DNA of 64,000 nt. Origin: an uncultured Methylophilaceae bacterium. Lineage in GTDB: Bacteria; Pseudomonadota; Gammaproteobacteria; Burkholderiales; Methylophilaceae. Made by a program: the position numbers and the translations under genes. Of this stretch, positions 18,949 through 62,445 are shown one piece after another (the first letter of the stretch is position 1; every line of letters starts with the position of its first letter). Location of the stretch: positions 62,001 to 126,000 of the forward strand of contig CAJIZS010000001.1 in NCBI GenBank assembly GCA_905182075.1, given 5' to 3'. The notes under the pieces are model-generated. The model searched no databases, was not told the DNA's origin, and was given only the letters and a program-made list of their open reading frames with translations.

Positions 18949-20237
18949 CTATTTTTTTCTCCAAGTTGTCCCTTCTGGAGTATCCTCTATAATAATATCA
19001 TTGTCCAAAATGACCTTTTCACACCAAATAATTAGATTATTCATGGTAGAACAACTTTACAGAGCTTTGACTATAATTAATAACCACCCCTATCATAATG
19101 AATAAATAATGGAATTAATTTTTGCTCAAGTAATAAGCCTGTGTATTTGGTTTATAAATACGAATAACCATAAAATTTTTTAACTAAATTAAAAATAACT
19201 TTTACATATCTGGGAAAAGATTTATTTTATCCCCATCTTTTAAAGTTACTATCGGTTTGACCAATCTATTTTATAACTAGAACTCCTCTCAACATCTCTG
19301 ATTGATAGATACAGGGTAGTTAAAGATTTCTGTGCCTCACTTAATTGCTCAAAGGAATAATTAAGAGGACTTCTGTAATGAGCTCTTAGCATAAAAAACC
19401 TTACGACTTCAGGTTTAACTTTGTCAGTTATGGAGCGTATGGTAGAAAAGTTACCTAATGATTTAGACATTTTTTCGTCACCTATTTTTACAAAACCATT
19501 ATCAAATAAATATGACATAATTACAACTATGAGTTGCCTCAGACTGAGCTATTTCATTTTCATGATGAGGAAACTGTAGATCCTGACCGCCACCATGTAT
19601 ATCAAAATGATTTCCCAGAATCTTATTACTCATTGCTGAACACTCAATATGCCAACCAGGTCTTCCTTTTCCCCAAGGAGAATCCCAAAAAGGCTCATCA
19701 TCTTTAGAAGGCTTCCTCCAACATAAAACTATTTTTTTTTGCCTCAGAAACTTTAACTCTATTTCCCGCACGCGCAAATACTATTGCCCAGCCAATGAAT
19801 TCGAGTGAAAAACGAGTAAAAAACATCATTATTAATTTAATCTACGGTATATCCTTTTTCTAAAAGAATTTTGGCGCAATGCAAACCAATATAGTCTGTC
19901 GCCTTAGGCTCAAAATCAGGCCTTATTATTCCAAGCGCATCTGCGTCTATATGCTTTTGATATATTTTTTAGTAATTTCCTGATAAGGCAGTCCTTGTTC
20001 GGCTGCCCTCGCAATAATTTTGTCGTCAATATCGGTGATATTTCTTACATATAAGACCTTAAAACCACTTTCTCTTAGCCATCTGTTCATAAGATCAAAA
20101 GCAATCATAGATCTTGCATGGCCTAGGTGACAAAAGTCATATACAGTCATGCCGCAAACGTATAACTTTACATGGCCTGAAATGATGGGCTTAAAGACTT
20201 CTTTTTTTTTGGTTAAACTGTTATAAATTGAAAGCAT
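18949..20237 (-). CDS. cysS: Cysteine--tRNA ligase, heavily frameshifted
   Basis: Class Ia synthetase. The N-terminal piece (19947-20237) has [20 protein letters not shown] (HIGH-like HLGH and the first zinc Cys) and [14 protein letters not shown] frame-broken part reads [17 protein letters not shown]. The next piece has [20 protein letters not shown] and [21 protein letters not shown] (zinc ligands). Then comes [10 protein letters not shown] (KMSKS). From 19249 down, only the last part is readable: [15 protein letters not shown] ending at 18949. About 60 residues of the C-terminal helical domain cannot be recognised. Essential gene, so the multiple breaks are taken as sequence errors. Confidence 0.9.
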
Positions 20238-20376: not shown

Positions 20377-20940
20377 ATGAAAATAACTTACAAGTTTTTA
20401 TTAATTGCCATATTGTCCCTAATAAGCCTTAACTCTTTTTCGGAAGAAAAAGAAAACCTAGTAATAGATACGTCATTAGGCAAGATAATTATCGAAACTT
20501 ACCCCGAAAAAGCTCCGATTACAGTCAAAAACTTTCTTCAGTATATTGATGAAGGCTTCTATAAGGGAACAATTTTTCATCGAGTTATTGATGGGTTTAT
20601 GATTCAAGGTGGTGGTTTTGATAAAGATATGAATCAAAAACAAACTAATGATCCAATTAAAAATGAAGCTGATAATGGCTTAAAAAACGAAATATATACT
20701 ATCGCTATGGCAAGAACATCAGTTCCTCATTCAGCTACATCACAATTTTTTATTAACGTAGGTAATAATGATTTCTTAGATTATCCTGGGCAAGATGGTG
20801 CCGGCTACTGTGTTTTTGGAAAGGTAATCGAAGGGCAAGACGTAGTTAAAAAAATTAGCAAGCGTGCAGTAACAGTAAAATCTGGCATGGGAGATGTTCC
20901 AATTAAGAAGGTAACGATTAATTCAATTAAAAGAAGGTAA
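20377..20940 (+). CDS. ppiA: Periplasmic cyclophilin-type peptidyl-prolyl isomerase
   Basis: Cyclophilin catalysing prolyl cis-trans isomerisation, exported by an N-terminal signal peptide (MKITYKFLLIAILSLISLNSFS). Intact, 187 residues. Active-site blocks: FHRVIDGFMIQGGGF (Arg of the catalytic site), MARTSVPHSATSQFFINV and GYCVFGKVIEGQDVV. Positions 20507-20763 are identical to part of the next gene. The order ppiA-ppiB-lpxH downstream of cysS on the opposite strand is common in betaproteobacteria. Confidence 0.92.
   Translation: MKITYKFLLIAILSLISLNSFSEEKENLVIDTSLGKIIIETYPEKAPITVKNFLQYIDEGFYKGTIFHRVIDGFMIQGGGFDKDMNQKQTNDPIKNEADNGLKNEIYTIAMARTSVPHSATSQFFINVGNNDFLDYPGQDGAGYCVFGKVIEGQDVVKKISKRAVTVKSGMGDVPIKKVTINSIKRR
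20507..20763 (+). repeat. 257-bp exact direct repeat, copy 1 (inside ppiA)
   Basis: Identical base for base to 20995-21251 in the tandem ppiB gene. It covers the cyclophilin core from Ala-Pro-Ile-Thr-Val to Phe-Phe-Ile-Asn-Val. Outside the block the two genes differ strongly. Offset between copies is 488 bp. Confidence 0.98.
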
Positions 20941-20942
20941 AC

Positions 20943-21437
20943 ATGATCACTATCAAAACAACATTAGGTAATATTACAGTCGAACTTGAAGAAAAAAAAG
21001 CTCCGATTACAGTCAAAAACTTTCTTCAGTATATTGATGAAGGCTTCTATAAGGGAACAATTTTTCATCGAGTTATTGATGGGTTTATGATTCAAGGTGG
21101 TGGTTTTGATAAAGATATGAATCAAAAACAAACTAATGATCCAATTAAAAATGAAGCTGATAATGGCTTAAAAAACGAAATATATACTATCGCTATGGCA
21201 AGAACATCAGTTCCTCATTCAGCTACATCACAATTTTTTATTAACGTAGGTTATAGAAGCTTTGTAAAAGGCGATCCTGCTGCCATCTTGCTGGTAGAAT
21301 GTCGCGGAGAAACTGAAGCGCAGTTGGACAGCGCTATTGAAAAAATGAAAGCTACTAAAACAGGAACAACAAATGGACACCAGGATGTCCCAAGCGAAGT
21401 AATATTAATTGAGGACGTATCTACTGATAAAAATTAA
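20943..21437 (+). CDS. ppiB: Cytoplasmic cyclophilin-type peptidyl-prolyl isomerase, apparent mosaic
   Basis: Cytoplasmic cyclophilin lacking a signal peptide: MITIKTTLGNITVELEEKKAPIT. The frame is open for 164 residues, but the sequence is patchwork. Residues 18-103 are encoded by DNA identical to ppiA. About residues 104-134 (FVKGDPAAILLVECRGETEA...) do not belong to cyclophilins and resemble the C-terminal region of FAD-linked oxidases. The last 30 residues (KTGTTNGHQDVPSEVILIEDV) are the normal PpiB end. The conserved block expected after FFINV (Gly-Tyr-Ala-Val-Phe-Gly) is missing. A ppiB gene is certainly here, but its sequence as given is probably not its true one. Confidence 0.82.
   Translation: MITIKTTLGNITVELEEKKAPITVKNFLQYIDEGFYKGTIFHRVIDGFMIQGGGFDKDMNQKQTNDPIKNEADNGLKNEIYTIAMARTSVPHSATSQFFINVGYRSFVKGDPAAILLVECRGETEAQLDSAIEKMKATKTGTTNGHQDVPSEVILIEDVSTDKN
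20995..21251 (+). repeat. 257-bp exact direct repeat, copy 2 (inside ppiB)
   Basis: Identical to 20507-20763. Its right edge (21251) is exactly where the foreign-looking FAD-oxidase-like piece begins, suggesting one event or artefact made both. Confidence 0.98.
21252..21345 (+). other. Foreign-looking patch in ppiB resembling a FAD-linked oxidase
   Basis: Translates as FVKGDPAAILLVECRGE and TEAQLDSAIEKM. The pattern Gly-Asp-Pro-x-Ala-Ile-Leu-Leu-Val-Glu followed by an amphipathic helix is characteristic of FAD-linked oxidases (COG0277 type) and is unknown in cyclophilins. Base composition is visibly richer in G and C than the flanks. The match was made from memory of the family, not by search. 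Confidence 0.55.
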
Positions 21438-22197
21438 TTCTAGTGCAGTTTTTGTTTCAGATACTCATTTAAATGATTCGTCACCAGAGACAATAGCTAA
21501 ATTTATTAATTTCCTTGAAAAAAATGTCAGTAAATATGGCTGTCTTTTTATTTTAGGTGATCTTTTTGATTGGTGGATTGGTGACGACACCAATCAATTC
21601 CCTCAGATTATCAGCGCATTAAAAAAACTTTCAAAATCAATGAATATCTATTTTATTGCTGGTAATAGAGATTTTTTTATTGGAAAAGGTTTTGAAAAAA
21701 AAACTGGTATTCAAATCCTTAAAGACCCTACATTAATTCAACTAGGTAATAAAAAAACCATACTTTTGCATGGCGACACTTTGTGTGTAGATGACAAAAA
21801 ATATCAAAAATTTAGAACTATTGCACGATCAATTATTATTAAGAAGATATATTTAAACCTTCCCTTAGTGTTAAGGCAATATATTTTTAAAGCAGTGAGA
21901 AAAAAAAGTGACGAAGGAAAGAAATCAAAAAATATTGAAATAATGGATGTTAATCAGGCTGCTGTAGAAAATTTATTTAACGAATTTAATTGCCCTCCCC
22001 TTATGATTCATGGTCATACACATAGGCCAAAAAAACATTATTATAATTTTAATAATAAAGAAAATCAGATTGAAGTTATTAAGGTGATCAGAAAGCTTTT
22101 TACTCTGGGACAAAAAAAAATTAAAGGTTGTAAATATTTAATTTTTTTTATTTCTTTCGCATTCCTCTTTTCTATTTCCAAGTGCTGCTTGATTTAA
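21409..22197 (+). CDS. lpxH: UDP-2,3-diacylglucosamine diphosphatase LpxH, C-terminus unclear
   Basis: Calcineurin-like metallophosphatase of lipid A synthesis. Metal-binding motifs are complete: AVFVSDTHLND (DxH), FILGDLFDWWIGDD (GDxxD), FIAGNRDFF (GNRD), LLHGDTLC (HGD) and MIHGHTHRP (GHTH). The open frame starts with a TTG at 21409, overlapping the ppiB end by 29 bases; no ATG is available near the domain start. After ENQIEVIKVI (about 22090) the protein no longer resembles the family, and the frame runs 60 bases into convergent nusB, so a frameshift near 22085 is likely and the true stop is probably earlier. Confidence 0.9.
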   Translation: MRTYLLIKINSSAVFVSDTHLNDSSPETIAKFINFLEKNVSKYGCLFILGDLFDWWIGDDTNQFPQIISALKKLSKSMNIYFIAGNRDFFIGKGFEKKTGIQILKDPTLIQLGNKKTILLHGDTLCVDDKKYQKFRTIARSIIIKKIYLNLPLVLRQYIFKAVRKKSDEGKKSKNIEIMDVNQAAVENLFNEFNCPPLMIHGHTHRPKKHYYNFNNKENQIEVIKVIRKLFTLGQKKIKGCKYLIFFISFAFLFSISKCCLI

Positions 22198-50270: not shown

Positions 50271-51650
50271 ATGCGAACTAAATTCGAAAAATTTTCCCTT
50301 ATTTTTGGTGGAGCAGTCCTAGGTCTTTTATTAAGTATAAATCTCCCAGTCTTTGCTGACAAAAATAGCCCCAACAAATTACCAATAGATGAATTGAGAA
50401 CTTTTGCTGAAGTCTTCGGGAAAATTAAGTCAGACTACGTTGACGACATTGAAGACAAAAAGTTACTTGATGAAGCTTTAAGCGGCATGCTATCTGGGTT
50501 AGACCCTCACTCAACTTTCTTAAATAAAGATAGGTTTAAAGACCTTAATGCAGGAACAGCTGGTGAATTTGGAGGTCTGGGAATTGAAGTTGGTATGGAA
50601 GCAGGTGTTGTGAAAGTGATAACACCAATAGATGATACTCCTTAAGGATTATGTAGAAAAAGGTGATCTAATTGTAAAGCTTAAAGATAGAAACATTATA
50701 GCACCTTTTGATGGTGTTCTTGGATACAGAGGTATTACTGGCGACAAAAATAACATCTATCTCTTCAGTTACAAACGGATGAAATAGTAATAGGTAAAGG
50801 TGGGACTGTGTTAGGTACAACTGCAAGATTAATCGAACCAAATGGATTAGGTGTTGGTGGTACTGTTAATACAATAGGTGGTGCATAATATGGAGAAGCC
50901 ATTAAAAAACTTAGAAAAGAAAACAAATTTGCATTTAACGGAATGATACTTGATATGCGAAATAATCCTGGTGGGCTCCTTCAAGAGGCTGTTAAAATAG
51001 TACGCAGCTTTTCTTAAAGAGGGTGACTTAGTTGTTTATACAGAAGGAAGAGCAGCAGACTCAAAAATGCACCTTACAGCTATTCCGGAAACTTGATTAG
51101 GGATCGCCCTATTGGAAAAAATAATTACCTTAATGGCCTGCCGGAAGACATCAAATATTCTCCATTAGTTGTTTTAGTGAATAACGGGTCAGCCTCCGCA
51201 GCCGAAATTGTTGCCGGTGCATTGCAGGATCATAAAAGGGCGTTGATAGTTGGGACAAGAAGTTTTGGGAAAGGATCTGTTCAAAGTATTCTACCCATGA
51301 TGAATGGAACAGCAATTAAACTTACAACTGCCAGATATTTCACCCCAAACGGAACTTCTATCCAGGGCAAGGGAATTAACCCTGACATAATCGTTACCAA
51401 TGGAAATGAGGTTTCAGAGTACCGAGAAGAAAATATTCCCAACAGACTTTCAAACCCTCAGGACAAAGACAAAGAAAAAGAAAAAAAAGCTTCTCCAGCT
51501 AAAGATGTCGATGTTAAAGACGGGACTATAAATCAAATCGTTAGCGAAGAAAAAGTTTACAAGCCTATTGCTTTTGGAAGCAAAGATGATAAACAATTTG
51601 CTGAAGCACTCAATATTCTTAAAGGTATTGATTTGTACCAAAAAAATTAA
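50271..51650 (+). CDS. ctpA: Carboxy-terminal processing protease (S41), frameshifted with foreign middle
   Basis: Periplasmic tail-specific serine protease. N-terminal signal anchor ([22 protein letters not shown]), then [36 protein letters not shown]. The PDZ domain starts [26 protein letters not shown] (to about 50643). From there to about 50890 the expected PDZ and linker are absent; see the separate entry. The protease resumes: [44 protein letters not shown] (nucleophile Ser), [11 protein letters not shown] (Lys) and [13 protein letters not shown]. Breaks also near 51015 and 51095. An acidic/Lys tail (KDKEKEKKA) follows. Confidence 0.88.
50648..50887 (+). other. Foreign-looking patch inside ctpA
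   Basis: First part (50648-50735) translates [29 protein letters not shown], the lipoyl-like hairpin of RND/HlyD efflux adaptor proteins, with the typical Ala-Pro-Phe-Asp-Gly. The second part (about 50795-50887) is glycine-rich ([20 protein letters not shown]). Neither belongs in a CtpA PDZ domain. The left edge falls where CtpA itself would have a similar Gly-Asp-Leu-Ile-Val-Lys stretch. Confidence 0.55.
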
Positions 51651-61685: not shown

Positions 61686-62445
61686 TCTTTAAGTCTTTAA
61701 AGATATCTCTATAAGTTACATACTGAAAAGCAAATAATACGGAAATATAAGCAGTCATAATAATTAAAATTATCATAACTAATAAAAATGATAAGAACGG
61801 AATAGTCGAAGCATTAATTAATGAGAATATAAAAATTATTATAAAGGTAAGTGAAAGAAAACCTCCAAGCAAAATTAACCATGTAATAGAAATCGGAATG
61901 ATATATGACAAAATACCAGCGAAGCTAGACTTAACTGCTTTAATTAAATTAAAATTGTTATACCTTACGAGTAATGGAGAAAACCAGGTAACTGCATAAA
62001 GTGGTAAAGATAGTATTGCGAGTTTAATGAAAATATGTGAAATACTTTCAGCTAAACCTTCAATTTCCCCTGCCTCCTTAGATAGCAAAACCAAAGATTT
62101 TAAATCATCACTCAATACAAAAGATATTAATAAAGTATAAAAGAGACACAATACCCCCAAGGCTAGTAAACCCTTTAAAGATTCATTAGGCATTTTTAAA
62201 GCCTCACTAAATTTAAAGGCTTTATTTGAATCTAGAGACTTAAAAAAACTTACATAGATAGTAATAACTATTGGCCACACTAGAACCACTAGAGGCATTA
62301 AAAATCCAAGATTAGATAAGCTCGGAAGAATTATATATAGAAATAAATACAACATTCCTAAAAACAAAGAAAATCTGATATTACCCCTCAATAACTGAAT
62401 GCTTTGAAAGGCCCATAAATTTGATTGTCTAAAAATATTTTTCAA
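61678..62445 (-). CDS. BPSS1780-type polytopic membrane protein
   Basis: 255 residues, intact, with six likely membrane helices (LFLGMLYLFLYIILPSL, LMPLVVLVWPIVITIYVSFF, LLALGVLCLFYTLLISFVL, LAILSLPLYAVTWFSPLLV, ILSYIIPISITWLILLGGFL and IMTAYISVLFAFQYVTYRDIF). WFSPLLV in helix 4 and FQYVTYRDIF at the end resemble the BPSS1780 family common in betaproteobacteria; function unknown. It sits between uvrD (convergent, 8-base overlap) and thrB (4-base overlap), the usual place in this group. Confidence 0.8.
   Translation of the reverse strand: MKNIFRQSNLWAFQSIQLLRGNIRFSLFLGMLYLFLYIILPSLSNLGFLMPLVVLVWPIVITIYVSFFKSLDSNKAFKFSEALKMPNESLKGLLALGVLCLFYTLLISFVLSDDLKSLVLLSKEAGEIEGLAESISHIFIKLAILSLPLYAVTWFSPLLVRYNNFNLIKAVKSSFAGILSYIIPISITWLILLGGFLSLTFIIIFIFSLINASTIPFLSFLLVMIILIIMTAYISVLFAFQYVTYRDIFKDLKTK

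Follow-up and report, generated by a model that had tools for sequence, protein, structure and literature searches.

The tandem cyclophilin genes ppiA and ppiB of the genus described here have quite probably undergone repeated gene conversion of their shared core, with divergent ends stopping the exchange, and in the window, the whole 64,000-nucleotide stretch of DNA under analysis, this pattern is overlaid by a sequence fault. Comparison of the genomes establishes, at the level of sequence, that the two cores are identical within genomes yet diverge from one genome to the next, that the ends are specific to each gene, and that the pattern is repeated in several lineages. The genus, a group of tiny marine methylotrophs that presumably consists entirely of OM43-type organisms, follows the grouping of the tool used and includes the isolates HTCC2181 (G002), KB13 (G001), LSUCC0717 (G014), and LSUCC0665 (G005). 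PMC4285135 names HTCC2181 as OM43, a marine streamlined clade.

The ppiA-ppiB tandem of the window

The window contains two adjoining cyclophilin genes on the + strand, a ppiA-type gene followed by a ppiB-type gene. The original prediction described a block of 257 bp identical between them, and this is borne out: positions 20507 to 20763 equal positions 20995 to 21251 at a spacing of 488, and this is the longest exact run between the tandem genes. A search of the whole window with a 20-base seed revealed no further repeat reaching 35 bp. The calculated chance of an exact run of 257 bases at the 57 to 71% identity of unconverted pairs is ∼10^-36 or less, which rules out a chance repeat. Phage origin of the region was likewise rejected after a phage search that returned 5 records with 68.8 to 72.0% identity, 3 of them annotated as cyclophilins and 2 unannotated.

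The first gene (20377 to 20940) is an intact open reading frame encoding a ppiA-type cyclophilin of 187 amino acids. It matches Pfam PF00160 with an E value of 1.3e-47 over profile positions 3 to 158 of 159, shows by eye a signal-peptide-like stretch at its N terminus, and was compared in an alignment to 20 genus orthologues and the partial one of G007. Its core carries block copy 1 (20507 to 20763, + strand), reaching from about APITVKNF to FFINVG. The second gene (20943 to 21437) is an open reading frame of the ppiB type encoding 164 amino acids, in which no signal peptide was seen. This gene is a mosaic: the ppiB start is followed by block copy 2 (20995 to 21251, + strand), by an unrelated in-frame piece that replaces the C-terminal core of the cyclophilin (21252 to 21345, + strand, right edge approximate), and by a ppiB-type C-terminal tail (21346 to 21437, + strand; KATKTGTTNGHQDVPSE...) that matches the ppiB tails of the genus. 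The original prediction missed that, in the second gene, the sequence 3' of the block is not ppiB and that the ppiB-type C terminus resumes afterwards. PF00160 is matched only by residues 2 to 110 (profile positions 2 to 119 of 159), and the complete cyclophilin domain of a functional PpiB is lacking, with the core replaced from position 21252.

Core identity of tandem pairs in the genus and beyond

The search of 31 genus genomes, that of the window included, yielded 22 comparable tandem pairs (in G007, ppiA is truncated by the contig end), 3 single hybrid genes, 2 genomes with gene pieces at contig ends (G015 and G023), and 4 genomes in which no ppi match was found (G006, G011, G016, and G027). 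In 9 of the 22 pairs (the window, G003, G014, G029, G001, G005, G013, G024, and G008), ppiA and ppiB show 0 differences over the 252 nucleotides of the window's block, silent positions included. The paralogues of these genomes are closer to each other than to their orthologues, with 100% identity in the block within each genome against 75 to 97% between the nine genomes, i.e., 3 to 25% difference. The LpxH protein, encoded by the neighboring gene, is 38 to 96% identical between the same nine genomes. Each of them carries 1 to 24 private base states, which are absent from the other eight, common to its ppiA and ppiB, and found at third codon positions as well. Three further pairs are partly homogenized, with identities of 94% in G010 (over the 64 nucleotides outside an N gap), 89% in G022, and 84% in G012, and the other 10 pairs are unhomogenized, with 66 to 71% identity between ppiA and ppiB in the block.

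The eight exact genomes besides the window contain identical runs of 388 to 412 bp at a spacing of 501 to 519 bp; in the multiple alignment, the runs of the same genomes measure 317 to 326, presumably owing to a gap opened in both copies. KB13, LSUCC0717, and LSUCC0665 are among these eight, and identical blocks in independent isolates, named in the original prediction as support for real conversion, are thus at hand. The edges of the tracts are sharp in the eight genomes with long runs, the last 45-nucleotide bin being 47 to 73% identical and the preceding bin 93 to 100%. Outside the core, the 22 aligned pairs show gene-specific flanks: ppiA has a signal-peptide-like start and an A-type tail, and ppiB has a short start and a B-type tail with NGHQDVP or a similar sequence. 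The lpxH gene is present in every locus examined. When eight stretches of 20 kb from G014 and G012 were searched separately with a 20-base seed, the only repeat of at least 40 bp was the ppi pair of G014; the pair of G012 spans a stretch border and could not appear in this search.

A wider sample of 91 relatives provided 80 loci, 6 of them from genus genomes already counted and 74 from outside the genus. Half of the latter (37 of 74) contain a tandem pair, no second copy was detected in the other 37, and the longest identical run in the 37 tandem pairs is at most 32 bases. The general statement of the original prediction that the two cyclophilin types normally differ throughout therefore holds for these pairs but not within the genus.

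Two further features of the genus pairs concern the core itself. The unconverted ppiA cores of G004, G002, G009, G007, G025, and G026 are devoid of the residues of a YPGQ segment that is present in ppiB and in the converted pairs, and the absence of this segment may mark a core as A-type. In G010 (L004), a run of 100 Ns (2192 to 2291) interrupts ppiB inside the homogenized block, perhaps through an assembly failure at the repeat.

Phylogenetic analyses

The tree of the block was built from 40 rows representing 20 of the 22 genomes, with G010 and G007 excluded. In all nine exact genomes, the A row is identical to the B row, and the two hence stand together. With these nine identical sets left free, a single A clade is rejected (p-AU of 1.6e-7, log likelihood 38.87 lower); the rejection concerns the remaining rows and speaks for mixing there, chiefly in G012 and G022. 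The converted rows and the window lie on the ppiB side of nine unconverted A rows (99/97).

The LpxH tree places the clade of the window (with G010, G012, G022, and G030; 100/99) apart from the clade of KB13 (100/99), and an unconverted group is the sister of the window clade (92/96). If only path length on this tree is considered, G010 is slightly more distant from the window than are G019, G028, and G020. The private states common to A and B in all nine exact genomes, taken with the LpxH tree, indicate recurrence in separate lineages. By parsimony, these shared private states call for one or more transfers in every one of the eight related lineages; in the window, the outlying lineage, a private state may also be ancestral.

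In a wider protein tree, from which WIN_B, G010_B, and G007_A were excluded, the ppiA of the window joins the unconverted A rows with low support. Constraint tests of this ppiA weakly reject both a purely A-like and a purely B-like ancestry (P values of 0.02 and 0.03), so no direction of transfer is claimed. The same tree, with few columns and many unresolved forks, groups the ppiA cores of the genus with its ppiB cores and not with the ppiA of Methylotenera, which may reflect an older conversion predating the split of the genus.

The foreign piece in ppiB and the quality of the draft

The piece of ∼94 bp at positions 21252 to 21345 has no cyclophilin similarity, directly abuts the block, and is probably an assembly or correction fault. 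Its GC content is 46%, compared to 32% in positions 20377 to 21251; since 3.3% of the 94-bp stretches of the window reach this value, composition alone is weak evidence. No second copy of the piece was found in its own genome, and the 30 other genus genomes gave no match at E values up to 1. Searches with its 40-residue peptide against Pfam and NCBIfam, whose filters drop most weak matches, and against PDB sequences gave nothing up to an E value of 10, and a plasmid search with the piece produced a single match with an E value of 8. Four non-self matches with E values of 0.018 to 0.08 were obtained from 398 Pseudomonadota genomes. The best two (0.018 and 0.065) coincide in their location within FAD-oxidase_C domains, with weak pairwise likeness; of the remaining two, one runs antisense to a longer frame, and the other lies in a protein that looks unrelated by eye. 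The piece has no significant match to the profile of the FAD-linked oxidase C-terminal domain, PF02913. A frameshifted native ppiB was rejected as its source, as the other two frames contain, by eye, no cyclophilin sequence.

The source assembly consists of 1.1 Mb in two contigs and is rated 47% complete; the window spans positions 62001 to 126000 of contig 1. Compared with the relative G012, 23 of the 59 genes of the window are spread over several reading frames; this number includes ppiA and ppiB, which match each other. The cysS gene directly upstream of the tandem (19249 to 20237, − strand) is divided into at least three reading-frame pieces. The multiframe genes and the fragmented cysS characterize the window as an indel-rich draft. 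The G012 protein encoded by cysS has 453 residues, and the part after residue 337 gave no match. Downstream, the likeness of the lpxH-type frame (21409 to 22197) to its relatives fades by eye near the 3' end, probably through a further frameshift of the draft.

A patch scan of the window flagged mainly frameshift stretches and is too coarse to catch the patch in ppiB. It also flagged ∼180 bp at positions 50643 to 50822, within a frame-3 gene (50271 to 51629) that is protease-like by eye. This stretch resembles neither G012 nor G014 (60 residues replacing 68 and 79 replacing 88) and contains stops in frame 3, and its peptide in another frame begins like that of the relatives (GDLIVKL) and then departs. 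The peptide did not turn up in any of the 30 other genus genomes, no second copy of the DNA was found in the own genome, and there is no Pfam match up to an E value of 1; the sole PDB-sequence match is EmrA, with an E value of 0.9. The wording of the peptide is one that we take to be typical of efflux adaptor proteins. The stretch is a probable second foreign or faulty patch, and the ppiB piece is therefore probably not alone, which favors a fault that stitches in foreign sequence.

How far this fault extends in the window is a matter of two readings. In the first, which has nearly an even chance, the 257-bp block and the 94-bp piece of the window form one artifact, a noisy stretch of ppiB having been replaced, in assembly, correction, or polishing, by a path that leads through ppiA and then through the gene of another organism; conversion in the genus is compatible with this. 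The foreign piece starts exactly at the end of the block, as a faulty patch of ∼350 bp would, and preserves length and frame, as a length-guided patch would, with 41 residues in the window compared to 40 in G012 between FFINV and NGHQDVP. Its alignment to the native DNA is also a little above what shuffling gives, as only 12 of 500 shuffled versions align equally well, and the indel-rich window, the low completeness of the assembly, and the second stretch unlike its relatives fit the same picture. Against a single artifact, the exact block in eight other genomes and the shared left edge make a real block unsurprising, and the second stretch was traced to no source in Pfam (up to an E value of 1) or, apart from EmrA, among PDB sequences.

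In the second reading, which we mildly favor, the converted block is native to the organism and the fault replaced only the right-hand part. The left edge of the block lies at the same codons, APITVKNF, as the start of the similarity between A and B in G010, G012, and G022, which favors a native converted block. The sister group of the window on the LpxH tree is not exact (94% over 64 nucleotides, 84%, and 89%), so the perfect identity in the window is not simply inherited; a single bad patch is favored by these inexact relatives, by the foreign piece adjoining the block, and by the second stretch unlike its relatives at positions 50643 to 50822. The original prediction offered either gene conversion or an assembly or correction error. 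Both parts have found their place, conversion as a real and recurrent process of the genus and not a one-off event and a fault as an additional feature of the window, and the choice between them for the window's own block is about even. The window's own ppiB sequence cannot be trusted.

It is very unlikely that the foreign 94 bp are real, illegitimate recombination having exchanged the C-terminal core of ppiB for part of a FAD-linked oxidase gene and thereby inactivated ppiB. The frame is open throughout, and two of the four non-self matches share their place in FAD-oxidase_C domains, but no source copy was found in the own genome, the other two matches are antisense or in an unrelated-looking protein, a random insertion would hardly be expected to match in length, and the draft is error rich, with another such stretch.

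Proposed mechanism

Repeated conversion of the shared catalytic core would most probably proceed by homologous recombination between direct repeats ∼490 to 520 bp apart, by which one core is copied over the other. The transfer would be of the RecA type and nonreciprocal; dependence on RecA is known from other systems. The divergent ends, i.e., the signal peptide or start region and the last ∼25 residues, would stop the exchange and keep each protein in its compartment, the product of ppiA being exported and that of ppiB cytoplasmic. The organism of the window presumably shares this conversion, and a fault would have put ∼94 unrelated bases into its ppiB.

An alternative product of recombination between direct repeats would be a deletion that leaves one hybrid gene. 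G030, G018, and G021 (L011, L013, and L014) each contain a single hybrid gene with the start and signal peptide of ppiA and the tail of ppiB, followed by lpxH. These hybrids may be the deletion product or a collapse of the repeats by the assembler. A tentative extension, for which the chances are below even, is that the two cyclophilins of this streamlined marine genus evolve in effect as a single core with two compartment-specific ends. Conversion would then outpace mutation to such a degree that eight genomes show no difference over ∼400 bp, and the repeats would have recombined further into the hybrids of G030, G018, and G021.

A fresh tandem duplication in every lineage, in place of conversion between two old genes, would be compatible with the tandem order and is highly improbable, as the starts and tails of A and B are gene specific across the 22 pairs, the tails do not group by genome by eye, and lpxH accompanies each examined locus. 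Strong protein selection without conversion can practically be dismissed: the cyclophilin core is well conserved, but third codon positions are identical too, whereas orthologues differ between genomes at many sites, and 10 of the 22 genus pairs are only 66 to 71% identical.

Implications and comparison with known systems

If repeated conversion of the core is true, a tandem of two genes in small, partly cultivated genomes gauges ectopic gene conversion against mutation, and two proteins that are the same in all other parts can be kept apart by nothing more than their localization signals and tails. Exact tandem repeats of ∼400 bp may also break or collapse short-read assemblies at the ppi locus of the genus, so apparent gene losses there in metagenome bins need care. 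Candidate signs of such breakage are the partial genes of G015 and G023, the N gap of G010, and the hybrids of G030, G018, and G021.

The ordinary ppiA-ppiB tandem outside the genus, largely from Betaproteobacteria by record title, has the same gene family in the same order; in the 37 pairs compared, its identical runs do not exceed 32 bases, compared to 388 to 412 in eight genus genomes. The classic cases of concerted evolution are tuf and rRNA. Gene conversion reportedly takes place between the rRNA operons of E. coli, and the ppi pairs resemble these operons in the intragenomic copying between repeats. The copies of rRNA are functionally equal, which ppiA and ppiB are not.

A literature search, with subscription papers and preprints largely outside its coverage, found no work on gene conversion of ppiA and ppiB, and the accessible parts of the literature on OM43 and gene conversion yielded nothing on conversion of ppi genes. 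Recurrent concerted evolution of prokaryotic paralogues by gene conversion is a known phenomenon, described in Wang and Chen 2018 (PMC6053082), and the ppiA-ppiB pair is a new case of it within the searched literature; the terms cyclophilin, isomerase, and peptidyl-prolyl are absent from the main text of that paper as far as it was accessible. As in the cases described there, the copies within a genome are more alike than orthologues, silent sites included, and this is repeated in separate lineages. Unlike those cases, the ppi partners differ in compartment and in their ends, are homogenized only in the core, and are direct tandem neighbors.
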